This document shows positions 1,179-60,888 of a stretch of DNA of 64,000 nucleotides, piece by piece. Source of the DNA: Mugil cephalus (lineage: Eukaryota; Chordata; Actinopteri; Mugiliformes; Mugilidae); the NCBI RefSeq assembly GCF_022458985.1, contig NC_061771.1, positions 16,236,001-16,300,000 on the forward strand, read 5' to 3'. Every line of letters begins with the position of its first letter. Position 1 is the stretch's first letter. The position numbers were made by a program, and so were the translations under genes. The notes under the pieces are model-generated. The model made no database searches. It had not been told where the DNA came from and saw only the letters and a list, made by a program, of their open reading frames with translations.

Positions 1179-4100
1179 AAAGTGAGTGAGAAAGTCGGGG
1201 GAGCGGAAGGAACAAAGCTCGATGAGGACTTCACTGAAATGGAAAAGGCACGTCTGAGCTGTTTCTCGTGAGCTAATTCTAGAGATAATTGGGAGTTTGC
1301 TGAACTTGCACAGACCCCCTACGAGCCCAACTCACATTATGGATTATTAAACACCTGCAAAGAGGGCACCAGTGTAAAGCGCTGCCATATATTCACTGAT
1401 TTAGCAGAACTGAATTCAGATACGTTTCTCAGTTGCTTGCACCGAAATTAAACTTAAACTCCAAGAAGTGTTCCCTTGTTATCACTGTACACTCGTCCGC
1501 TGTGTGTCTCATATTTTTCATCTGTTATTTCTGTTTCACTTTGTGATTTACAGAGGGTGGACACCACCGCTCGAGCAGTGCTGGACATCATGACCAAAAC
1601 CACTGAGTATTTGCAGCCAAACCCAGGTAACATCAGCTCTGCAAGAAGGTCACTGACCCTGAGCCTGGATTGGTCTGTCTGTTCTCTATACAGTATATAG
1701 TTTGGACATGATATTTTGCATTTAAGTCATGTTGCAATATGAGAAAATCTCCTAGTAATAAAAATATAACGACAGTAGATTGTCTGTTGTTATTCCTATA
1801 CTATAACTGACCTTTAGTTGAAGGCAGTTGTTTCTTCTCTTGGTTTACACCGATTGCTTTCAGCTTTTTTTTTTTTTTTTTTTAAATTCCAATGAGCAGC
1901 ACAGAAATCTGAGCAAATGAAATAACCTTTCTACATTCGGTCCAGTGGTGTTTGATGTAATTAGTGCTTTGCCGTCTCAGCCACCAGAGCCAAGATGAGC
2001 ATGATGAACTCCATGTCGCGCATGCGCGGCCAGGAGAAAGGGCCGGGCTACACGCAGACCGAGACCATCCTGGGAGAGTCCATGCAGAGGTTCGGCCGGG
2101 AGCTCGGGGAGGACTCTAACTTTGGTGAGCCGCAGCACATTAACACTTCTGACAAGAGCTTTAACAGTCTTCACGAGAACAAAGTGGTATAATTCTATTC
2201 CCTGAAGACCGCGGCAACAATGAAAAATGTATGAGCCACTTCTCCAGACAAAATGCCTGCGGTTCACTTTACTTATTTCACAGAGGAAGGCATTAAAGTG
2301 ATGTTTCAATAAAGGCACGTATCTTTAAAATCCTAAACTATAATGAGATGTCATGAATTACCGTACAGTTAATTTCTAAATCTGTGTTTCTCTTTTCCAG
2401 GCCTTGCCCTGATTGATGCTGGGGAAGCCATGCGTGAGCTTGGAGAGGTTAAAGATGCTCTGGACATGGAGGTGAAGCAGAACTTCATCGACCCACTGCA
2501 GAACCTCCATGAAAAAGACCTCAAGGAGATTCAGGTACAGACCAAGGAGGAGAAAAAAAACGAATGAAAGTCACCTATATGTCAAAGATTCCTGTTAATT
2601 TTTTGTCTGTTTGTGTTTTGTTTGCAGCACCACCTGAAGAAAATGGAGGGCCGCCGCCTGGACTTTGATTATAAGAAGAAACGTCAGGGCAAAGTGACAG
2701 ATGACGAGCTCAAAGCGGCGCTGGAGAAGTTCGACGACTCCAAGGAAATTGCTGAGCAGAGCATGTTCAATCTGTTGGAGTGCGACGTAAGGATCCCTTT
2801 GTCTTCCTGAACGAACTGGGCTCAACATATGTGACACCACCCCCATCTCATTCTACATAACACTATTTATGGAGCAAATATTTTAAAAACCCACAATTCA
2901 GATACGCTAAAGAGCCACAAGAGTCAGACTCAGTTCTGCTGCGTGGTTTGAGTTTATGAATCTGCCGTCAGTCTTCCATGGTTTCATTCTCATGGGATAA
3001 CGTCAGTTTGTACATTGTGCTACATCACAAAAAGTGCATCTGTTTACTTGATACAAACATAGACTGACATGAAAAACATTTTAATGTCATAATGTATACA
3101 TCTTTATGCCTCACAATGTCCCAACACAGAAACAAGCTTGTCAGATTTCCTTCCTTTGTGTTGCTCCACACACAACATCTCCATGTAAAACAGACTAGAA
3201 GACAAACAACACGTAATGTTTTCTTCTGCAGTGGTTGTATCTTTCTCAAAACAGTATCATTCCCAGTGTATGCTTATATTCTAACTACTATATTTATAGT
3301 AAGCACTTTTTGAATCCATCATTTAGTGATGGTATCATTAATCATCATATTAAACAGTAGTTGGCTATTTATCAGAAGCCATTTTGGATCATGAGGTTTT
3401 CATGTACGGTAGCTCTGAGTGTTCAAACTAAGTCATCAGATGAGGAAATAATTGAGACGTTCGCCCCAAGTCTCTAAACTTAAAGTTCATTCATTCATGG
3501 CTGAGTTGTGTGGATGTGTAGTGGATCCTGCTTCTTCTCTGGGTGCCCACAGATTGAACAGGTGAGCCAGCTGGCCGCGCTGGTCCACGCTCAGGTGGAG
3601 TATCACAGCCGGGCTGCTGAGATCCTCACACAGCTTTCCAGTAAGATAGACGAACGGTCAGTACCGGCTTCGCAAACTTCAGTGGCTCAGCTACAATAAC
3701 ACGTAGAATGTCAGGCATTGTTGTTTTCACAGTAAGACGTTTGAACCAAGGGTTGTTTGTCTTCCTCCCTGAAGGATAAGGGACACTTCCACCAAACCGA
3801 GGAAAGAGTTTGCCCCGAAGCCACGTACATCTCTGGACTTCTCCATCAGTGAGAACCATAACGGAGGCATCCACGGGGCTCGTTCTCCAGGTGAGACCCT
3901 GAATGTAACCTCAGCGTTCAGAAACACGTCCAGAAACTAGTCTTGATAATGTACATATACTGATGATTAGCATCAGGGAATCCCGTGGAAACACACACAC
4001 ACAAAAAAAATAAATAAAATGTTTTAATATTGTTTCCTAAAGGGTAGCTTCTGGACTGGTTTCAGTTCATTTCTTTATTTCTTTGAACCCTTCCTGTTTT

Positions 4101-7100
4101 TGATTTTTACTGTAAACTCTCAAATAGATTTTTTTTTTTTTCAGTTGTACTTCACACATTTCACGGTATCTATGTCCTGATATTACATCATTCCCTGCAG
4201 ATATTCCACAATAAAAGCCTTCCAGGGAGGAGAAAGACGCCTCCTATAGGAGCAATAATGCTTCACCTCCTTTTAAGGCTTCTAGCATGATACATAATAC
4301 ATTTTTGCACAAGCATAGACAAAAGCATAAATACTCAAAAAACAACATCTTAATCATTTTCTTTCATATAATAGTTCTATTTTAAAGTAAACTATTCCAG
4401 TTAGTTTTTTTTAACCAGTGTAAAAATAAATTTAAGACTAAAGCAATAAACCATATTTGAGCGTTTACAGTACGTTTTATTGTCTAATTTTTGTGTTTCT
4501 TTTCCCCAGACGTTTTCCCCACATTTATTACCTGCACTAAACAGAATGTCCTCCAGTCCAGATCAAATAAATACAACTCTGCACTCTTCTCTTTCCCTTT
4601 ATGATTTTTGTTTGTATTTTGTAGGTGCGAGGTCTCCAGGTGAGCCAGGTCAAACTGTGCTTTTCTTTTCTGTCGATTAGCTTCCAGCGTCTTTGTGCTC
4701 ATCACATCTTTTCATTTTCATTGAAAACTCAGAGCTACTTCTACCTCCCCCACCCCCACCCCCCACCCCCTTCGTGCTGTCCCCCCTCCCTTTGCAGCAA
4801 GGTCTCCAGGTGAGACAAAAGTGACTCCCCGAGAGATACCACCATATCTCGTCATCACCTTTCTCATTTCCTCATTTGATTTTTTTATTTATTTATTTAT
4901 TTTTTTTGTGGAAAGAAAATGGTTGTTCTGAAACGATCCCAAAAAACTGCAGAAAATCAAGTGCCGTCCACTTGACTTACGAAGAACGGCCGATCAACAG
5001 TGGCAATAAAAAGCTCACATAGCAGCGGACGAGCATTTCCTCTTTCTGCTTTGGTCTCTCGTCAGATTTCTGATCTTATCCTCCCGTTTCTCTCCACCTC
5101 TGTTTCAATTCGTTGTCCGTTTGTGTTTCTTTTCACTAATACCGTTTACTGACCTCATCATTGCCGCGCCCTCTGTACTTATGTAGGGTGACCAGATTTG
5201 AGTTTGTGGTGGGGGGGAAAGGGGGAACACGAATGCGATGTAAACATGTTTAGTAGAACAAAATCCTAGACAAGTTTGAAATTGTTTGACACACTTTTAG
5301 GTCTCAAAAAAAGGACATGTATGGGAGAAAGTAGACGTCTGGTCACCCTAACTTATCCATTAGTCGGTTATTTCTCCATCTAAAAGTCTGACTGCTAAAG
5401 TTCTCGATTCATCATTGTTTTCTCTTTGTTTTTTTCTCTTGCAGCAAGATCTCCAGGTGAGCAAGAGTGACATGGAGAGAGATGGAAAATCTCTTAATCA
5501 CTCTTATTTCTGTCTTTCTTTAAGTGGACTTTTCAAAGTGTATTTTGTCTCGTTTTGTTTTTGGTTTGTTTTCAGTGCAGAGTTCTTTCTGTCTAACCTC
5601 CGTTTCTTCTCAGTTTTATTGTTAAAGGAACAGTTTGACATTTTTGGGAAATGTGCTTAATTGTGTGTTTGCGTGGATGAACCAGTTTAACAAATCCCAC
5701 TTACAAACGCCTCTAAAGCTCACGAACAGTCGGCTTTATGTGGAATACAAACTCTAACAGATAAAACATTAATGCATGAATTCACCTTTGGAAGCTTCTA
5801 GTTCAGCACAGTGTTCGTCACCTTCTTGATTCCTTGGATCCAAAAAAAAAAAAAAGGCACCAAATTTTGATCTTTGGATCTGACTGAGAATCTAAGAACA
5901 ACATTCACACTCCTATAATAGTGACTTGCCATACCATGTTTCTGGTGTCTATTTTACTCTAGATCTGACCATAATTTACAAAAGAAACCATATCCATTAA
6001 GACTCCTACTAGAAACTGAGATACTGAAAAAAATAAATTAAGTTGTGTAATTTTCTAATAGCGTTTCTACTGACTTCTGACTGAGAAGAAGTGCTGATTT
6101 AAATCTTATCTACAGAGGCTTCAGGTAACCTACATTACATTTATACTTGTGCCTCATCAGTCTGGCTCACTCCGTAAAAACAGTCACTATTCTGCCTTGT
6201 GTTTTTTGCCCACTGGATTAATTTTAGTTTCTGCTTCCTGCTTTACTTTCAACAGTGGTGTCGAAATTTTCCCAAAGATATAAATTTAGTATCTACTGAA
6301 CCTCCTCAGTTAACCTTTCCTCGATGTGATGAATCTGTATCGATCCAGAACAATCAATTCAGCAACTGTGGAGATGTAAAAACAGCCAGAAATACAAAGG
6401 TGGAGACATGCGACTACCCAGCGGCCCAATTACAGCTCTTTCAGTCTGCGTCGTCACAGTGTATAATTATATTTCTGGGGAGGTGCACATCAGTTATGGT
6501 GCACTGCAACTGTAGCTACGTCATCAGATTGACACAGAAACCTAAACCGCCTATAAGTGCACTGTTTATACTCAGTAAACTCTGTGATGAGTCAGACTTT
6601 TTCTTGCTTGACGGTGACTCAGAGCTGAGAATTATCTCTCAGCTAGTGACCCGCCTGTTATTCATATACCTTTGAATTTTAGCAGATTTTAACAATTGAA
6701 AGTGAGCTTTAGAGCTGCTTGTACGCAGGTTTTTGTCACCTCCGCACAAGGCCACGTGAGCCCCATCAAGTCTGGAAGGTCACGTTTACTGCTCTTTAAC
6801 ACGGGTGCAATGTTTAGCCAAAAAAATATATATATTTATAGTCACTTTCCATCCTTCTGATACCGAGCTATGCATCGACTTTGCTTCAGTGTTGTGTGCT
6901 AAGCTAAAGGTGGCTCGTGACTGCCCCCTGAGGACAGAGGGTGGAAAAGTTTGCTGTGGGTATTTTTCCCTTACGTTTGACGGGCAACGCTTGTCAAACT
7001 CCACATTCAAAAACAAACTTTAACAAGCGACAGAAATGGGGTGAGAGTGGTCTAGACCCTCTCATCTGGCCTTTCCACCAGAAAGACCACTGATAAGCGC

Positions 7101-7696
7101 ATTACCCGAAAACACTGAACTGCTCCTTTAAACGTGTTTTGCCAAGTTCTTATTTGCTGATGGTCACGCTGATCTTTCTCTTTTGCTTTGTCCCGTCCTC
7201 TCTTCCTCACTTTCAGCCAGGTCTCCAGGTGAGCCTTTCAAAAGCTTTTCCTGTGATCGTTACGTTTCTAATCTTTACGCTGCACCGTAAAGTTGGAATA
7301 AAAGATTTTTACCTGAAATGTAACAATGTGATTTACTCTTGAGAGATAATGAAATAGTGTATCTTCTCAAAAATGTACTGACCAGCGTCTACCGAACAAA
7401 TAGGAATGTAAAGACTGATGATTCCAGCTTTATGGTGAACAGTGTCTTTGCAGCATTTCCTCTTCTCGCCTCCTCTAACCCCGTCCCTCTTGTCTCCAGC
7501 TCCCATGGACCAGCCCTGCTGTCGCGCACTGTATGATTTCGACCCCGAGAACGAAGGTGAGCTAGGCTTCAAGGAAGGCGACATCATCACCCTAACCAAT
7601 AAGATCGACGACAACTGGTACGAAGGGATGCTCCACGGCAACTCTGGCTTTTTCCCCATCAACTATGTGGATATCCTGGTGCCGCTGCCCCACTAG
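1179..7696 (+). CDS. sh3gl2: Endophilin-A1 (SH3-domain GRB2-like 2), exons 2 to end
   Basis: Endophilin A senses and bends membrane at synaptic and endocytic sites through its N-BAR domain and recruits dynamin and synaptojanin through its SH3 domain. Exons: 1179-1247, 1554-1626, 1981-2124, 2401-2534, 2628-2786, 3553-3656, 3775-3890, microexons 4625-4639, 4798-4809, 5445-5456, 7217-7228, and last exon 7500-7696. All phases agree, giving 348 residues here, about 363 with the missing first exon (human 352). The BAR part includes [20 protein letters not shown] and the highly conserved [20 protein letters not shown]. The last exon is a complete SH3 domain (ALYDF ... [16 protein letters not shown] ... 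NWYEGM ... GFFPINYV) ending in LPH. EKGPGY, the [12 protein letters not shown] start of the SH3 exon and the GFKEGD...[12 protein letters not shown] stretch favour SH3GL2 over SH3GL1; SH3GL3 shares some of these. The intron after exon 2 starts with GC (1248-1249) instead of GT. Which of the duplicated fish copies (a or b) this is cannot be told. Confidence 0.93.
5184..5350. mobile_element. Short inverted-repeat element (MITE-like)
   Basis: The 13 bases TAGGGTGACCAGA at the left end reappear inverted at the right end (TCTGGTCACCCTA). ACTTAT flanks both sides and may be the target duplication. At 167 bp there is no room for a transposase. It lies in the intron between the second and third ARSP microexons. 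Confidence 0.65.
5632..7131. mobile_element. TTAA-flanked non-autonomous DNA element in an sh3gl2 intron
   Basis: The left end is TTAAAGGAACAGTTTGACA; the right end, read inverted, is TTAAAGGAGCAGTTC, a near match over 15 bases with TTAA at both outer edges. The left end resembles a widely dispersed teleost repeat start. TTAA edges would fit a piggyBac-type target, but no transposase is visible and the family is not certain. It separates microexons three and four and explains why that intron is long. Confidence 0.5.
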
Positions 7697-10090
7697 GACG
7701 TCACCACTACCAGCTGTGTCTGCAACAAATCCTGGCCTCCAGCTCCTCGTTCCTTCCAGTATCCCCCTCCCCCCCGTCCCGTAACCTTTTTCCTAAACGT
7801 TCCCACTACTAACCACCTGCGCTCCGCTTTAAAGGAGCCAATACAGCAACAACACAATAACGAACAAAGATGTGAACAAGGCTAATGAGGAGTAAAAGCA
7901 AGTGTGCACCGAATGAGCGTTAAAAAAAAAGAAAAAAAAAAACTTTTAAGGAAAATGAGGAAAAATCTGCATTGATGTTGTTGCCCTCCCCCCCTTATTC
8001 CAGGAGGTACCTTCAGGCTTCCATAGTCTAATACTTTGCCCATCGCTGTCCCCGGCTTCTGTCCTGGTTTAAGTTGGCTGTCAGTCCGTCACGAGTTTAT
8101 CAGAGCAGCTCTGCAGAATCACACTTTCTCTCATTCACTGTATTTTGTGCAAACCTCTACAGTAGATAGAATCTTTTCTCTCACATACTACGAAAATAAT
8201 GTTGGTCCACGTGCTTCATGTTTGTTAGAGACTGTACGTCAAGCATGGTTTCAAGTGTTTTAACGTTTTATCTTATTAAAAAAAAAAAAAGAATATGTTG
8301 AGTAGTTTTGTTTCAAATAGTCCTCTTTTTAACAGTAGTCGTCTCTCTTGACATGCTCGGACAGTTTATTTATTTAATTTTATTTATTTTTTTAGAAGAA
8401 ACAGCGTCCTTGTCGTGCCCTAAAAAGTCTGTCTCTCTCTAAAGGAGTTTTAATAATAATAAAAACGTTGTAGGCGGATTCATCGAGCTGACAACCGATA
8501 GTATTTTTATGTTTTACATATCAACGTGCACGTGTGATTGACTGGTCATGTGTGATTTAGATACCAAAGTTATCTGCTATTTAGCTCCGACGGGACGCGT
8601 CGGCAAAGCCAGCGTGACGCCACAGGGTCAAGCTTGCGATCTCTAGTTCTTTGGTATTTTATAAGGAGTGGGTGAAACTGTATTCTTGAGTGCGTTACAC
8701 ATTACATATCTGAGCCAGTGATTAGTGAAGTGGTGACATGATTTGCAGAACCCCAAGTCGTGAAGTTTCAACGGTTTGAAGTGAAAACTATGGTGCATCA
8801 GTTTCAGTCCTCCGACATGTATTTTATCAGCGACGTGAACAGTGGTTGGTGTTTTGTGATATAATAACTTATAGGACTTAACCGCTCATCGGGGGAAGAC
8901 GTTTTTTTTGCTGAAGACGTGGCTCTTTCTGCTGCGTCCCTGCTAGGCCAGTTAGCGTTCCTGTAGTTTAGGTTGTCGATAAGCCACTGATTAAGATGAC
9001 ACTCGGTGTGAGGAAGCTGAAGGGAGGACGAAGGACGATGCGACTTAGGCTAAAAAATAACACTTTTCTTCCTGATGATATAGACGAAAAGCCACTGCGT
9101 CCCCCTCCCCGTGTCATGTCAGACCTCAGAACAAACTGTTATACATAATGTTTAGTATTCTCTGACCTGTTGTGGGCTTGTATGCGATGTTGTGTGGGAT
9201 TGTGTTCACGTCTTTAAGTGATACTGCTGATAACCTGGAACACAAATCCACTTTGGTTTTTATCTTTTAGTCAGGTGAGGTGTTATTCGCCACGCTTTCA
9301 CCCATCTTGTAGTAATGTTGTGCGTGTATTTTGGAGGAGGGGTGCATGCTGGGGTTTGCATACCGTCGTTGGTGTTATGCGCAGGGAGAGGGAGGGGGAG
9401 GGGGGGCGGGGCTGCGGGGGACCTCGGATGCTGAGGTATTTAAAATATACTGTCTCTGACAGTGTTCAGCATTAAAACAAACATGGATGTCTCTTTAATC
9501 AAAGGACCAATACGTTATACTCAGTAGAAACAAAATTACGTGATGCAAAATCTACTAATAAGCCGTATTATTTTATTTTATTTTATTTTATTCTATTTTA
9601 TTTGTTTCCAGTGGAGAAGCACAAGTTTAACAGACAGTGTATCGGGGAAGAATAGCTATACAGGTTAAAGAAGTCATATATTTATTTATTTTCTAATTCC
9701 TTCCTTCTTTTTCTCTTTCACTTTTTTTTTTAACAATCGTGTGTATCTTTGCCCTCAATGAGGACTGTACAGCTTTTTGTGTTTTGTTTTCACCTTGTGT
9801 GTATAGTTGCGCATCTACAGTAACGTATCTTATTTTTGTAACTGTGACAAAAGTATACACATACAGTATAGATGTATATATACCGTATATTACCCAGAAG
9901 TAATGTGACAGGAGGGATTCTCTGTGCTGCACATGATTGTCTTCGGATTGTTTTTGTTTGCTTTCTGTTTTTTTTGTTTTCTTTTGTTTTATTCTTGCAC
10001 TGGATTCGAAAACTGCTTGATGTAAAGAAAAAAAAATGTGATAAGTAAATGTAATTTATTCAAATAAATACCAAATAATGGTTATCGGCC
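7697..10090 (+). other. sh3gl2: sh3gl2 3' untranslated region
   Basis: After the TAG at 7694-7696 no coding sequence is seen. The stretch holds A-runs (7921-7942, 8277-8290), an AU-rich patch of repeated ATTTATTT near 8365-8395, a (TTTTA)n run near 9570-9600, and an AATAAA at 10063-10068. Long 3' UTRs are common in neuronal endophilin transcripts. The exact end is inferred. Confidence 0.5.
10063..10068 (+). terminator. sh3gl2: Candidate poly(A) signal of sh3gl2
   Basis: AATAAA followed by GT/T-rich sequence around 10120-10150. It is the first canonical signal in a good downstream context after the stop codon; use is inferred. Confidence 0.45.
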
Positions 10091-29454: not shown

Positions 29455-29871
29455 GCTGAGGTATGTTGAGAGCATGTGATGCTCTAGGGGGTGTGGCCCT
29501 TGAGGAGTTCTGTGGAGGTAATACACTCAGGTAAGACAGAGTGACTCATTCTCACACACACCTTAAACGCCACCAATTGCGCTCTCATGCCTGCACTCAC
29601 TACACAACCTTACTAGACGACGAGCTACGGGAATACGCAGAACATGTCCCGCCTTTACTGAAAGAAGATCCATCGGAAAAGCAGATAACTTCTAATTTAC
29701 TTGAAGATCTGCTGGATTGGGACGTAAACACTGTGAGTTTGAGCTTTCTTACAGGATTGCCAGCAGGGCATCTCTTTCATTTTGAGTTCTACTGCCCGGG
29801 CCAGGATCTCATTTGCAGTAAGTTTGCCTTTCTAATCGATTTTTTAAAAGGGATATTTTTTTGAACTGTCC

Positions 29872-30972
29872 ATGACAATGCCAGTGGTCAAAGTGGAGAA
29901 AGACTCTACTGCAGACACCAGTCTACCTGCCTCCAATCCCCCGCCGCAAACGGAGGAGATGCCCCGAGGCCGGAGGAGGAAGAGACCCCTCCAGCGGGGT
30001 AAACCACCATACAGCTACATCGCACTCATTTCTATGGCCATCGCCAACTCCCCTGACCGCAAACTGACGCTGGGGGGCATCTACAAATTCATCACGGAGC
30101 GCTTCCCCTTCTACAAAGACAATTCGAAGAAGTGGCAAAACTCCATCCGCCACAACCTGACTCTCAATGACTGTTTTATCAAGATCCCTCGAGAGCCAGG
30201 GCGGCCAGGGAAGGGTAACTACTGGGCGCTGGACCCAAACGCAGAGGACATGTTCGAGAGCGGCAGCTTTTTGAGACGCAGGAAGAGGTTTAAGCGCTGT
30301 GACTTGAGCACCTACGCCACGTACGTGCACGAAACGCCCGTCTTCTCTCCCGTCCAGATCACCAGGGCAGCTGCCTACACCAACTCCGTCTACCCCAACA
30401 TGACGGTCAGTCCGACCTACGGGCAGCAGCTGCCGTCTGCCTATTATCCCTCTTCATCACCTCCCGGATTCGGACATAGCCAGACCCGCATGTTCAGCAT
30501 CAATAACATCATAGGACATCCAACTCCAGCCAGCATGCTGGCAGGCCAAGGGCCGGAGGTGATGCAGCAGCCCAGCCGCAGCTTCAGTCCCGAGGGAGTT
30601 CCAAACGGATCCTCTACCTGCAACCTGGGAGCCTCTAGTTTTCAGAGTCAGCCGTGCGGGGGAGCCTTGCCACCCCGCTCATCCACGCACCCGGCGTTCC
30701 CCTACTCCGGGCCAAACAGCCATCCACACCACCACGGACACCAGGGTTCGTATGGACAGGGTCACACCCAGGGGTACGCAACAGCAGGACGGATCCATGC
30801 CTCCACATCTGGGTCAGTGGAAACGATGGACCATTACGGCAGGGTCTCCCCGGTGCAGCTGGGCTCTTTCTCCCAGTATAACAGCGCTGGAGGGCCTATT
30901 GGCAACACTGGGGGATACCTGAGACACCCCACCTACCCTGGGAATATGGACCGGTTTGTGTCCGCCATCTAA
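29872..30972 (+). CDS. foxe1: Forkhead box protein E1 (thyroid transcription factor 2)
   Basis: A DNA-binding transcription factor of thyroid, pharyngeal and palate development. Single exon, 366 residues (human 373). Residues 34-38 (RRRKR) are a basic stretch; the forkhead domain runs from about 43 to 142, starting [16 protein letters not shown], with recognition helix [13 protein letters not shown] at 90-102 and a closing basic block RRRKRFKR. The C-terminus DRFVSAI matches human FOXE1 (DRFVSAM) and separates it from FOXE3. The poly-alanine tract of mammalian FOXE1 is missing. An eh1-type motif FSINNII is present at residues 208-214. ATG 29872 is taken as start; a second ATG two codons later makes no real difference. 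Neighbours trmo, hemgn and anp32b are those of human FOXE1. Confidence 0.96.
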
Positions 30973-38800: not shown

Positions 38801-41800
38801 GCCCTTCAGCACACAAACAGATCAGAGCACTTTATGTACTGTATGCAAACTACCAAAGGCTGAGGGTTGTGTGGTTGTTTTTGTCTCACCATGGTGATCC
38901 TCATGTCTTGTATTGACTGCGTAAGGTTCTGTAGAGAACGTCCATCAAGCTCCACCTCCTCAATCCTTTTCAGAGCCTCCATATAAAGGTCTCTGTACAT
39001 TGTGGTCTACATGAAGTACAAAACAAATGAATGAAACATGATGATGATGAGTTCTGTGATGAGTCGTTGTATATAACTAAATGCAAGCATGATTTATTTT
39101 CCCCCATTGGCATGATTTGTCCTTACCTGACTGAGTTCAGTGTGGTCAGTTTGAACTAGTTTCTCTCTGAGGTCTGAAGGAGCAGGACCTGCAGGACGTT
39201 CTTGTGTCCTGGCTGAAGCCAACTGTTGCACCAGGGCCTCAACCATGACCATGCTAGATCTTAACCTCTGCTCCAGCTCCTGTCTGGGGAGGCTCTCTAA
39301 GGTGCCTTGAAGTGAACTGAGAACACATCACAGACAGCATGAGTGGCAGCCAAATAAATAAAAAAATAAATAAATAAAGCCAAGTAAATAAAGACAGAAC
39401 ACTCACTTCCACAGGAGTGGCTCGGTCATGGTGCAGGAATCAACCACAGAGAATTCCCTCACTCTCTTAAACAGGCCCGATGTATTGAGGCTGCGGTCCA
39501 CTAGTTTGGCTGGACTTGTGCCCACACAGACGCTGTGGGACTCTACAGTAGGAGCTCTGGCTGATGGGGCTGTGAGGACAGCAGAAGGTGGAGCAGAAGC
39601 ATGGGCAACTGCAGGGGCCATTTTTCCAGATGCTAAGATGAGGAATTCTGCCATCTGCCGAAGTTGCTGCTGGAGTGGACCATCAGGAATCATTGGTATA
39701 TCCAGAACAGGCTTCTTTACTTCAGACTGTGGCACTGCATTGTGCTTTTCTCCCAGATCCTCAACCGGCTCAGAGGCCGGGCCAGGCTGGGGCTTGTGAC
39801 ATAGAGCTGTGGAGTTGAACAAAGGATGAGGCATGGGGCTTTCCAAACACTCTGCCCATAAACCAGCAGGGTCAGTGTTAACAGGTGCCAACAAGCTTTT
39901 CTCGGCCTCGAGAGCTGAATCATCTGCCAAAAACTGGCCTTGAGCGGAGAACTCATTCTCATGAGCCTTTAATGAAGGTTGGGGTGCTCTCCTGACAACA
40001 GGACTGAGGAACTGGAAATCTGAGGCAAGGGAGGGACACACTGACAGGACTTTCCAAACATCAGGGAGGTTTTCTGCAGGTTTTTCCACAGGGTTACAAA
40101 CAGCTGGTCCATTTCCAGATGAACCAATGGCACTGTCCTTCGACTCACTGGCGTCAGGAAGGGCCCCAGAAGGAGCCTCCGCTGAAGATGTAAAATTGCT
40201 GCACTCAGGGATCTCAGTTTTATGAACCACAGAAGACAATGGGCTGTCTATGGGACGTATTATACACTCTGATGTTTCTTGCACTTGACAAGTAACCGTT
40301 TCAATATCCAACACTTTTACAGATGTGTTAGTCAGTGCAGATGCAATAATAGCAGGTGGATCAGATTCTACTACGGCTTCGTCCTCATTTGATTGACTGT
40401 TATTGTCATCTTGAAGGTCACTCTGTGCAACTGAAGTCGATTCGCTGTTTTTATCGAGCACTTGACAGATTGCAACCTCATCTTCAGACACAAGGGAGTT
40501 CTCCTTCATCTGGTTATCATGTGTTGTTTCAGATTCAACTTCAGTTGTAATGGTAGAGCTGGATGTAACACCGTCCTGTCTGTCAGCCTGACTATCAGGT
40601 ACCACCAAACTCATCTGGTTGACTTCTTTAACGCCGGTGCTGCACAGCGATGGTTCCTCTGTGTCAAAAAGGCTCCCACATGGAGGTGATGAAGTATTAT
40701 CAATGTTACTGTATAACTGACCTAAATAGTTACTACTGACTTGGAAATCGTGGTCACCACTTGTCATGCTTGGATCTGCACCATTGTGATGTGACTGACT
40801 GCTGGACACAGTGTGATCAGCTGGTTGAGGAAGAGACTGATCTGCAACACAGACACGCTGTGAATTCTCAGCTTCTCCTCCAGTGCAGTTAAACGACTTA
40901 AAGGTGACATCATTCGGTTCAGAAGTAGGCTTTGGTTTCTCAAAATCATCTGTGGTTGCAGCCAACGTGGTGGTGATGGGAATATCAGGCACTTCACTGC
41001 TACAGTATGGATGATCAGCATGGTCCAATTGACACTGCTTGCCACAGTCGTATGAGTAGTTAGTTGAATTTATACTGTTGTCTTGTAAAGGGCCACCGAG
41101 ATCTGCCTCAGGCAGAGGAATAGTCTCATCCTGAAGTCGGGTGGAATCTGAAACTTCAACCTCTCCTCCATCACAGACAAATGATTTCCAGGTGACTTGT
41201 TTCTCTTCACTGCACTCATTTGGAAAACCTCTTGCGTCTTGTGTTTCTTGTTTATCATCAGGGACATCAGAGACAGGTGTGATCTGAACTTCACAGAGAC
41301 ATGCTGCACTGGTGTCAACAGAGTAATGCTCTTTCATATTAGGATTGTGATAGGGGTGTTCTTTGTGGTCACAAGAGGACTCCACTATCATACTGTGAGA
41401 GATGGCTGTATCTTCTGTCTCATTGTGTTGTGTAGTCTGGTCTTTGGGCAAAATAATACTCTCTTCTGCACAAAATGAAGAACCTGGGATCTCAACCTCA
41501 CCGCCAGCACAGACGAAGGATTTAAATGTTACATCTCCGAGTCCTGAAGCAGTCTGAGTCGTTATAGGAGTAGAGGGGGGACTGGTTTGTACCGCTCCCG
41601 TAGATGAAGAAGAGTCCAAGTCTGACTCTGGGTTACTTAGAGAATCAGCCTGTTAATAAAAATGATTGGGTTATAGTATAGGGTATATAGTATATAAGTA
41701 TATAAAATGGGGAATAGTGACAATACTTTGAAATGTTAGTAAAAACTTACCACTATCATTTTCACAGCTTCTTGTGATTTTGATTTGAACCTCGATGATG

Positions 41801-44130: not shown

Positions 44131-47100
44131 TCACGCTGAGGCAATGCGGCGCCCGACGGGTTGGACCTGCAGTACCTCGGCAAAGTCCTGTCCAAACCAG
44201 CAGGTGATGTCAGCCGTGTCGAGGGTGAAGAAGAAGAGTCTGTCTCTGCAGCGAGTCCTCCTGTAGACTGAGCGGGGGTCTGCTCTCAGAACACCTCGGA
44301 TGGCGGCAGCAGCTTCTTCTGGACTGCGCAGGAACTTAAACTTTGGTCTGTCGCTTTCAGAGGCTCCTGTGTGGTGCACAAGTTTGTTTTCAGTCTACTC
44401 TGCTATGAAAAAAGTAAGCCTTTCACATTGATCTCCATGACAACAGCACCCTCTTGTGGAGAAACACACAGTGGGGCTGACTTACCTGTCAGGTGTGTGG
44501 GCAGGAATTCTGCCAGCTCCTTCTCAGCCTGAGGAGTGAAGCGCACCTCCAGACTGGCCACAGGAGGCTCTCGGATCCAGCCAGCAATGGTAGTGTAGGT
44601 CTCCTCACCGTAGCAGGGGTGGTCCACCGTCAATCCTGGTGGGTTAGTTTTAGGAGAATCACGGTCTTTGTTCTCAAAGCGTAGTTGGTGAACTTCATCT
44701 TCGGTCACATATGATTTGACCTGTTGCAGAGCGTTGTGGAGTTCCTTGGGCAGAGAAAACTGAGCGCTGACAGTAGAGGAAGCTGCTAAAGAAACATCAG
44801 TTTTAGATTCGTCTTCTGAGAGGAAATTCTGCGCTTCGTCACAATTATCAGAGAAGAACTGAGAATCTGAGCCTTCATGTGGATTCTCCTCATTCAGCGA
44901 CACAATCGTTTCATTTGGTTGATCTGTGTTTGAGTCATTAGGCTCGGAGTCCACGCTCATCCTGGTGTCAGGGCAGTCGTACTGTGGGATGTAGGGTTTG
45001 ATGTCCAGGACCGGGGTGCCAGCGATCATGTCGATGTCTGACAGATGTACTGTATCACCTAGAAGACAAAGAGAAGCATGTGTTTCTTTTGACTGTAGTT
45101 TGTTAGATTCTATGGTTCAGATTTAACCTGACAACTCAACATTTTGACTGATAAGAAAATTAAACAGGATTAAGATAACAGTGGAACAGTGGAGGTAAAA
45201 AATATCTGGAGGGTGTAACAGACAACTGGTCTGTAGAGTGAGTCAAGGGTCACTGGGCCACATGCAGCAATGTTTTCTTTTATTTTCTGATTTAGAACGA
45301 CAATAAAATAAGTCCACATGCACCAAACCTCATTAATCCAAATTCAACATCCGGTAAAAACTACAAAAGAGAAGTGTTGTGTGATATTAAGAACTAGAAC
45401 AGTAGTAAAACGGACATATTACTGAATAATTTTATTATAAAATAATCGGGTGTTACAGGAGTATAAGAAAAGAGTTATGATAAAACATTGTGAGTCTGTG
45501 TCTTCAGCGTGGAAGCCTATCTTTCAAATTCTGATATAAATGGAGTGTGGTTATACCAGCATAGCAGAGGGATACACAATGAAATTAAATGGCAGGACAT
45601 GAAATTGGAAGAGGGAAAAAAAATGCTTTGCCCGAATTAAATCCTTCATGGTGACAACAAGAAAGAGACAGGAAGTGGTGGGGGTCTCACAAGATCTAAC
45701 TGATTTAGAAAGCAGTATATAAGTACAGTTTAACAGGGGTAAATAGATACAAATAGTATCTGATTAGGCCGATCAAATCATTTTAACTGCTCTAAATCAT
45801 GTAATGATTTAAATGTGATTTAGGTTTATAATGTCCATGTGTTCTCTAATTTAAAGCTTCTGTTTCCTTGTGTTGCACTAAAATGTTGTGGACCGTGAAA
45901 ACAAAGACAAGTAAAGTGACTTTTTAGGATGAAAGGAAAAAAGTATTTGCAGGAGGTCAAAGAAAAAAGTACCCACGCATTTCCTTCTTAAAGTCACTGT
46001 TAAGTACGCCTCTCATGGAGAAATAAATCCTGTCTAAATTAGTTCGTATACACGTTTTATTTTTAATGACACTCACCTTCAATTCTGTCAAGTTTAGCGA
46101 GCGTCAGCCCCAAAGCGTTGGGCCGGTGTGGACTCCGCGTCGAGTACACGCCAACTCTCTGACCGTTCAGTCTGGGAGGCTTCACTTTGGCTTTGTAACT
46201 CAGGTGTCCATTTTTATGAAAGAGAAAGATGATCCTGTAGAGAGCAGAAACAGAGAAAAGATGAAATGACGGTCATTACCAGTCACGTGGCTTCGTATCA
46301 TTACACAGGTAAAAGGACACGTCATTCAAATAAAGCTGAGCAAGTTTAAAGTCATGCTTTGGTGCAGTTGAGTTAAAACAACGTGAAGAGGATGTTAGAC
46401 ATCAACTGTATATCTGACTCCTGAAAGCTGAAAACCCCACATACATACACAGATCAGGCATAACATTACGACCACCTTCCTAATATTGTGTAGGTCTCCC
46501 TTGTGCCTCCAAAACAATTGTGACTCATTAGTGAATGGACATGAGTCTTTTGAGAGTGTCCTGTGGTGTCCGGAAAGAGGATGTTGTCAGTGGGGGCCTT
46601 TCGGTCCTATGGGTTGAGGGGAGGGCTTGTCCCAGTACGTCAAACAGATACTTGATCAGTTTGGTCGATGTTATTTACCTGTCAGTGGTTTTAATGTTGT
46701 GGCTGATTGGTGTATATATGGATGTTGAGCCAACAAAGTGACAGCCTTAGTGTTACCTACTCAAAGTCTTTGAATGAGCAACACCAACAAAAACCAGCAG
46801 TAACCCTTTAATCTAACTGGATAATTAACAACAACATGGTTTCGTCCAGACATTCAGGTAACCAGCCACTGTCTGTGAACCTACCAGACATGGGAGTACT
46901 GCTCCAGACCCAGCAGAGCGTGGTCTGGGTTGTTGAAGACACTTTGTTGGATCCGTAGTTCTGCCCTCGAAGGTCCACATATAGTCGGCTGCCTGGGCGT
47001 CCCATTTTTCACGGAAAAACAGGAACTGATGTAACCTATCGGGACCGTCTGGATGCTTCCTGCAATGATACACATGGGTGACATGGTAACACAGACACAT

Positions 47101-53600: not shown

Positions 53601-60888
<7,288 letters not shown>

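Follow-up and report, generated by a model that had tools for sequence, protein, structure and literature searches.

Four very short units, here called m1-m4, lie in the intron that separates exon 8 from the last exon of the endophilin A1 gene (sh3gl2) in the 64,000-nucleotide stretch of Mugil cephalus DNA presented above, which is referred to as the window. They are probably genuine cassette microexons of this teleost gene that would tune the linker between its BAR and SH3 domains. Endophilin A1 helps nerve endings recycle vesicles. Each unit would add 4 or 5 residues (ARSP, or GARSP in the case of m1) to this disordered linker. The original prediction of the array described phase 1-1 units with their own acceptor and GTGAG donor, which are seen in all four, and its coordinates and junctions for m1-m4, exon 8 and the last exon are exact:

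4625..4639, + strand: microexon m1, 15 nt, GARSP, phase 1-1, sequence GTGCGAGGTCTCCAG
4798..4809, + strand: microexon m2, 12 nt, ARSP, phase 1-1, sequence CAAGGTCTCCAG
5445..5456, + strand: microexon m3, 12 nt, ARSP, phase 1-1, sequence CAAGATCTCCAG
7217..7228, + strand: microexon m4, 12 nt, ARSP, phase 1-1, sequence CCAGGTCTCCAG

Every unit has an AG ahead of it and a 3′ end that reads TCTCCAG, followed by GTGAG. The end of exon 8 at 3890 (...CTCGTTCTCCAG|gtgag) likewise carries this core before GTGAG. With lengths of 15, 12, 12 and 12 nt and splice sites of their own, m1-m4 fall within the microexon limit of 30 nt or shorter given in the available part of one source (PMC8042270). The reading frame stays open across the SH3 domain in each of the 16 splice combinations of the four units.

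The gene runs on the + strand and the window opens inside it, exon 1 lying before the window. The edges of exons 2 to 7 follow from splice signals and frame:

1179-1247, + strand: exon 2 of sh3gl2
1554-1626, + strand: exon 3 of sh3gl2
1981-2124, + strand: exon 4 of sh3gl2
2401-2534, + strand: exon 5 of sh3gl2
2628-2786, + strand: exon 6 of sh3gl2
3553-3656, + strand: exon 7 of sh3gl2
3775..3890, + strand: exon 8 of sh3gl2, ending ...GIHG-A-R-S-P|G with donor CAG|GTGAGA; its phase runs on from exon 7
7500..7696, + strand: last exon (exon 9) of sh3gl2, with the linker end (APMDQP), the SH3 domain and the stop codon

Exons 2-7 (1179-3656) encode the BAR domain. With all four microexons skipped, exons 2-9 give 331 residues of a BAR and SH3 protein, which matches Pfam BAR at 3e-70 and SH3_1 at 2.7e-15 with exon 1 outside the window. 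Its top PDB matches, among the best 60 of 310, are SH3GL2 BAR and endophilin-A1 SH3 chains. The protein has the architecture of an endophilin A, an N-BAR domain followed by a C-terminal SH3 domain. Domains, PDB matches, translation and the tree described below thus back the gene assignment, the exon structure and the placement of the units in the BAR-SH3 linker that had been proposed. The introns from exon 8 to the last exon measure 734, 158, 635, 1760 and 271 nt. Elsewhere in the gene, exon 2 ends AAG|GCACGT (1245-1253) and the next intron, of 306 nt, resembles a GC-AG intron; no frame-keeping GT was spotted by eye near this donor.

Rarity, splice signals and predicted linker products

The window has five copies of TCTCCAGGTGAG on its + strand, at the end of exon 8 and in m1-m4, and none on the - strand. 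The m2 20-mer including acceptor and donor (CAGCAAGGTCTCCAGGTGAG), allowed up to three mismatches, matches the window four times; these matches are m1-m4, and 100 dinucleotide shuffles yield none. Over the genome (634.8 Mb, 24 contigs), the acceptor-unit-donor sequence CAGCNAGRTCTCCAGGTRAG has three matches, which are m2, m3 and m4, against 0.018 expected under uniform bases. A looser RSP-microexon pattern also matched only m2 and m3 genome-wide, missing m4 through one purine in the tract and m1 by its differing shape. An in-frame scan for units of the form AG-12/15 nt-AG|GTRAG with a tract share of at least 0.7 found m1-m4 and one - strand match in the window; in a small control set of other own-genome loci it found none in 189,354 strand-bases. 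When the scan was widened to 3-27 nt, the window gained one more match on each strand and the control still gave none. A chance origin of the m1-m4 array is excluded.

The shorter 15-mer AGGTCTCCAGGTGAG is by itself not rare: it has eight genome matches, three in the array (m1, m2 and m4) and five outside, and its backward control has two. The five outside copies, two of them within a duplicated stretch, might suggest a dispersed repeat or mobile-element fragment that landed here repeatedly, and so might a MITE-like stretch with inverted repeats (5184-5350) between m2 and m3. This is hardly credible. None of the five outside copies has a pyrimidine-tract acceptor ahead of it, the unit with its acceptor was found nowhere else in the genome, and the MITE-like element sits in the intron rather than over the units. 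The element itself has 13-nt perfect inverted ends, TAGGGTGACCAGA and TCTGGTCACCCTA, recognised by eye, and is possibly a mobile element that lengthened the intron. The duplicated stretch belongs to two loci 7 kb apart on contig 2 (L035 and L036, 22.30 Mb), which share a long, near-identical sequence around the AGGTCTCCAGGTGAG match (local score 2543) and probably represent a local duplication or a mobile repeat.

Splice sites were scored with an approximate donor/acceptor matrix. On this scale the donors of m1-m4 reach 6.9-7.2 bits and that of exon 8 reaches 6.9, compared with 0.2-3.6 for exons 2-7. Among the 198 AGs of the intron, the acceptors of m1, m2, m3 and m4 rank 7, 4, 2 and 5, respectively, and four of the 198 score at or above the acceptor of the last exon. 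The pyrimidine share over the 20 bases before the acceptor is 0.70 for m1, 0.85 for m2 and 0.90 for both m3 and m4 (0.65-0.80 for exons 2-9). These features suggest usable splice sites. GCATG occurs at two places within 3701-7800, one of them TGCATG, a count with no comparison set. RNA folding of five 72-nt stretches around the units was no better than in shuffles (z from -0.92 to +1.26), and a hairpin spotted by eye after m2 and m3 was dropped on this account.

m1 begins with GT, so that the exon 8-m1 junction recreates a weaker donor, CAG|GTGCGA. This donor scores 3.5, above five of the six donors of exons 2-7, and m1 is the only unit with such a start. m1 might therefore be a recursive-splicing exon, removed through the recreated donor and serving mainly to split the intron. 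We regard this as very improbable: the donor of m1 itself is far stronger (7.2), the intron ahead of m1 is short at 734 nt, and the idea is silent on m2-m4, which cannot recreate a donor.

At the protein level, the 16 inclusion patterns translate from 16 mRNAs into only eight distinct proteins, because ARSP is the product of m2, m3 and m4 alike. Of the 16 isoforms originally proposed, the splice combinations thus stand, all in frame, and the number of proteins is halved by the interchangeability of m2-m4. Splicing would set a number rather than a choice of sequence: zero to three ARSP, with or without GARSP. The segment that starts at KPRKEF and stops just short of MDQ has 34 residues with all units skipped and 51 with all included, so that the linker gains 17. 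In the stretch from NGGIH to MDQPCC, SP dipeptides number from 1 to 5 across isoforms. The full CDK-type motif is S-P-x-[KR], and its count in the same stretch runs from 0 in the fully skipped form to 3 in the longest. With each ARSP that comes behind an S-P, Arg falls at +3 and the bare S-P becomes S-P-A-R. Phosphorylation of the added SP sites by a proline-directed kinase is a possible consequence. The RSP units had also been put forward as SH3-domain ligands, an idea that found no backing: no canonical PxxP occurs between KPRKEF and MDQPCC in any of the 16 isoforms. According to the available part of a 2025 review, endophilin linkers have 37-58 residues and carry modification sites, and linker swaps alter endocytic function (PMC12457278). 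In the Ciona endophilin, Ser263, just past the BAR domain (residues 29-257), is described in the available text as a DYRK1 site required for lumen expansion (PMC10007804).

Paralogs and origin of the units

The closest copy of the window gene in the same genome is C1 (L024, contig 1), with 85% identity over 206 columns; the next best copy has 71%. In a six-row tree with no named reference, the window gene and C1 are sisters with 99/99 support and separate together from the SH3GL1-like and SH3GL3-like copies, the names (sh3gl1 for contigs 6 and 7, sh3gl3 for contig 3) being assigned by the analyst. C1 is most likely the teleost-duplication partner of the window gene. Exon 8 of C1 ends S-A-K-S-P-G-R-S-P|G and so holds two SP repeats and an S-P-G-R within the exon. 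The branch lengths over BAR and SH3 columns differ about five-fold, 0.13 for the window copy against 0.025 for C1, which suggests asymmetric evolution of the array copy after the duplication.

The array was searched for in the other endophilin-A copies. Intron 8 of C1, 663 nt by the analyst's reading, gave a best match of 10 mismatches in a 20-position scan with the array unit, and the corresponding stretches in C6, C3 and C7 gave 8, 9 and 9, all as in shuffles. Scanned in frame for units of 3-36 nt, the exon 8-9 stretch had no match in C1, C6 and C7, and in C3 a single 9-nt match inside the SH3 exon. In the divergent copy C10 (contig 10), in which exon 8 was not found and which was excluded from the mismatch scan, the in-frame scan of the 4.8 kb up to the SH3 exon gave three matches of 21-33 nt over an upstream BAR exon, none of them unit-like. 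Among the own-genome endophilin-A copies examined (C10 by in-frame scan only), m2-m4 are found in the window gene only. Scans of viral and genome contigs with the exon 8-9 peptide, aimed at other species, turned up no relative. Separately, the linker intron of the sh3gl3-like locus on contig 3 (L026) appears, by eye, to hold two additional small exons, about 33 and 66 nt long (reverse-complement 7348-7380 and 8552-8617), in the same place and unrelated to ARSP. Gain of linker exons may be recurrent in the endophilin A family.

Within the array, the intron stretches directly 3′ of m2 and m3 resemble each other:

4815..4861, + strand: intron stretch directly 3′ of m2, like the stretch 3′ of m3 (32/48 alignment columns identical)
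5462..5505, + strand: intron stretch directly 3′ of m3, like the stretch 3′ of m2

The score of this likeness, about 45 nt long, was reached by none of 3000 Markov sequences and none of 3000 window pieces. Because this downstream intron is common to both, one of m2 and m3 was probably copied from the other with some intron attached. An anchored flank test covered 25 comparisons (10 downstream and 15 upstream pairs) with 300 shuffles each, uncorrected. In this test the remaining nine downstream pairs all stay above 0.05. Two upstream pairs are nominally low among the 25 comparisons: exon 8/m1 (score 2) at 0.037 of 300 shuffles and m2/m4, whose likeness of score 7 covers the tract, at 0.033 of 300 shuffles. 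By unanchored local score, the m1/m2 downstream pair lies above all 200 shuffles. The tandem copying envisaged in the original prediction is thus supported only between m2 and m3, through their common downstream intron, and its choice of the exon 8 end as the source is not supported. The exon 8 end carries no acceptor, so copying it would not alone make an exon.

An alternative origin for exon 8 and m1 is an older two-repeat exon, as C1 exon 8 holds two SP repeats and its unbroken end (AKSP-GRSP) resembles exon 8 plus m1 of the window gene (ARSP-GARSP). Three histories would fit: gain of an intron within a two-repeat exon, loss of an intron from C1, or two separate origins of the likeness.

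The array was not found in C1, as might be expected if m1-m4 were decayed or cryptic remnants of an old local duplication, unused in mRNA. This explanation is improbable. Both splice sites, the reading frame and the TCTCCAG core have been kept in all four units, and in the anchored test only the downstream flanks of m2 and m3 stand out, the two upstream pairs being nominal at 0.03-0.04 among 25. The sole difference between the m2 and m3 units, moreover, is synonymous (AGG/AGA). It is the one base in 17 that differs over unit and donor, against 11 of the 43 ungapped columns of the common downstream intron. The contrast has a binomial P of 0.045, or 0.0096 with gap columns counted as differences, and a Fisher value of 0.08, and points weakly to selection on the unit.

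Probable cassette use and its rivals

If m1-m4 are cassette exons, U1 would bind their strong donors, and the acceptors would be recognised across introns and not across the 12-nt exons, with inclusion adjusted by tissue factors. Use of the units in RNA would be alternative and neural. Longer, more basic and more phosphorylatable linkers might then alter SH3 reach and self-contact, so that linker length and SP phosphorylation would together tune endocytic activity.

Several results weigh against this reading. The pyrimidine tract of m1 is weaker than those of the other three units, and at a tract share cut-off of 0.8 the in-frame scan loses m1 and gains one unrelated 4-nt unit (9271-9274). The AG-free stretch before the acceptor spans 44-70 nt in the units and 16-85 nt in constitutive exons, which does not separate them. 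UGC close to the acceptor is a mark of Srrm4 control, and TGC lies at -5 in m2 and m3, at -45 in m1 and at -33 in m4. Constitutive exons 2 and 6 have it at -5 as well, and exons 4 and 7 have it within 24 nt. Over the 50 nt next to the acceptors, the units cannot be told from constitutive exons by their UGC or pyrimidine motifs, and the UGC at -5 is no evidence of Srrm4 control because exons 2 and 6 equal it. As to the products, S-P-A-R is gained with inclusion of m2-m4 and m1 alone creates none, and the S-P-x-R argument depends on the CDK-type motif. The selection test is weak, one of its three versions being not significant. Finally, strong splice sites fit constant inclusion equally well.

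This last point leads to the possibility that m1-m4 are real and constitutive, with a fixed linker ARSPGARSPARSPARSPARSP in every transcript. The unit donors outscore those of exons 2-7, the acceptors are among the best of the intron, and C1 has a fixed two-repeat linker, AKSPGRSP, inside its exon 8. However, 12-nt exons are generally hard to include unaided, and skipping is frame-neutral in all 16 combinations, which is cassette-like, though true of any phase 1-1 exon. On balance we consider constant inclusion unlikely, and cassette use remains the preferred reading.

A broader proposal, which we put forward only tentatively and hold to be doubtful as it stands, is that the array is a repeat counter made by splicing. 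The splicing machinery, and not the DNA, would set the number of ARSP repeats, the linker length and the number of proline-directed phosphosites. A linker that was fixed, as in the two-repeat C1, would have become adjustable in this copy after gene duplication.

Small alternative exon arrays are known from other genes. In the PEVK region of titin, the length of a disordered spring depends on how many similar, phase-matched exons splicing retains. The sh3gl2 array is alike in that exon number sets the length of a disordered segment, and unlike it in that the titin exons are much longer and belong to a muscle protein. Exons 4-8 of TNNT3 (fast skeletal troponin T) are small, vary the N-terminal region and encode differing peptides, whereas three of the four sh3gl2 units give an identical tetrapeptide and only copy number changes. 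These TNNT3 exons are described, in the part of the report available, as an alternatively spliced run mostly of one phase class (PMC2447309), and a run of same-phase exons in one gene is what the two systems share. Another example is RPS24, in which three consecutive microexons of 3, 18 and 22 bp show linked, tissue-dependent use under PTBP1 control (PMC12686416). The microexons are adjacent as in sh3gl2, yet they vary in size, one is not a multiple of 3, and the available text does not indicate a copy relation. The schistosome MEG genes also combine, within one gene, many short exons with long introns (PMC10526429). As far as the accessible text describes them, they encode secreted parasite proteins built largely of short exons, whereas sh3gl2 encodes a conserved protein and repeats one unit within its linker. 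Endophilin B carries a neural exon under SRRM3/4 control, in the same position in the fly gene and the mouse gene (PMC8797185, available part). This too is a short exon in an endocytic and synaptic protein family; it belongs, however, to another branch of the family and is a single exon rather than an array.

In the available main text of a zebrafish SRRM3/4 microexon study, sh3gl and endophilin are not mentioned (PMC12626424). Searches of the open-licence literature yielded nothing that joins sh3gl2 with microexons, nor any account of near-identical microexons arrayed in an endophilin A gene; public annotation may contain predicted isoforms. Set against the known arrays, sh3gl2 would have near-identical 12-nt exons that are interchangeable at the protein level. 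If cassette use is correct, such exons would turn alternative splicing into a dial for length and dosage. The effects of linker length and SP-site number could be tested with both endophilin A1 domains held constant and the unexpanded C1 serving as an internal reference. Because of their size, such exons are readily missed in read mapping, and similar arrays may be overlooked elsewhere. Should use in RNA be absent or constant, the array would be a curiosity of exon duplication.

Other features of the window

Beyond sh3gl2, the window holds further open frames. Those at 56170-59118 (+ strand) resemble, by eye, an ANP32-type acidic leucine-rich protein and include a long Glu/Asp run near 58.9-59.1 kb; two of these frames have no Pfam match. 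On the - strand, 39406-41652 is an open frame of 749 residues in which three V-T-[FW]-K-S-F-x-C-x-G-G-E motifs can be seen by eye; Pfam gives no match for it at 0.001, and coiled-coil-like open frames adjoin it. Pieces of a TrmO-like tRNA methyltransferase lie at 44131-45116 (- strand), with TrmO_N above the cut-off and TrmO_C below it. The open frame at 29848-30969 (+ strand) contains a forkhead domain (Pfam Forkhead, 6.7e-38) and is presumably foxe1-like.

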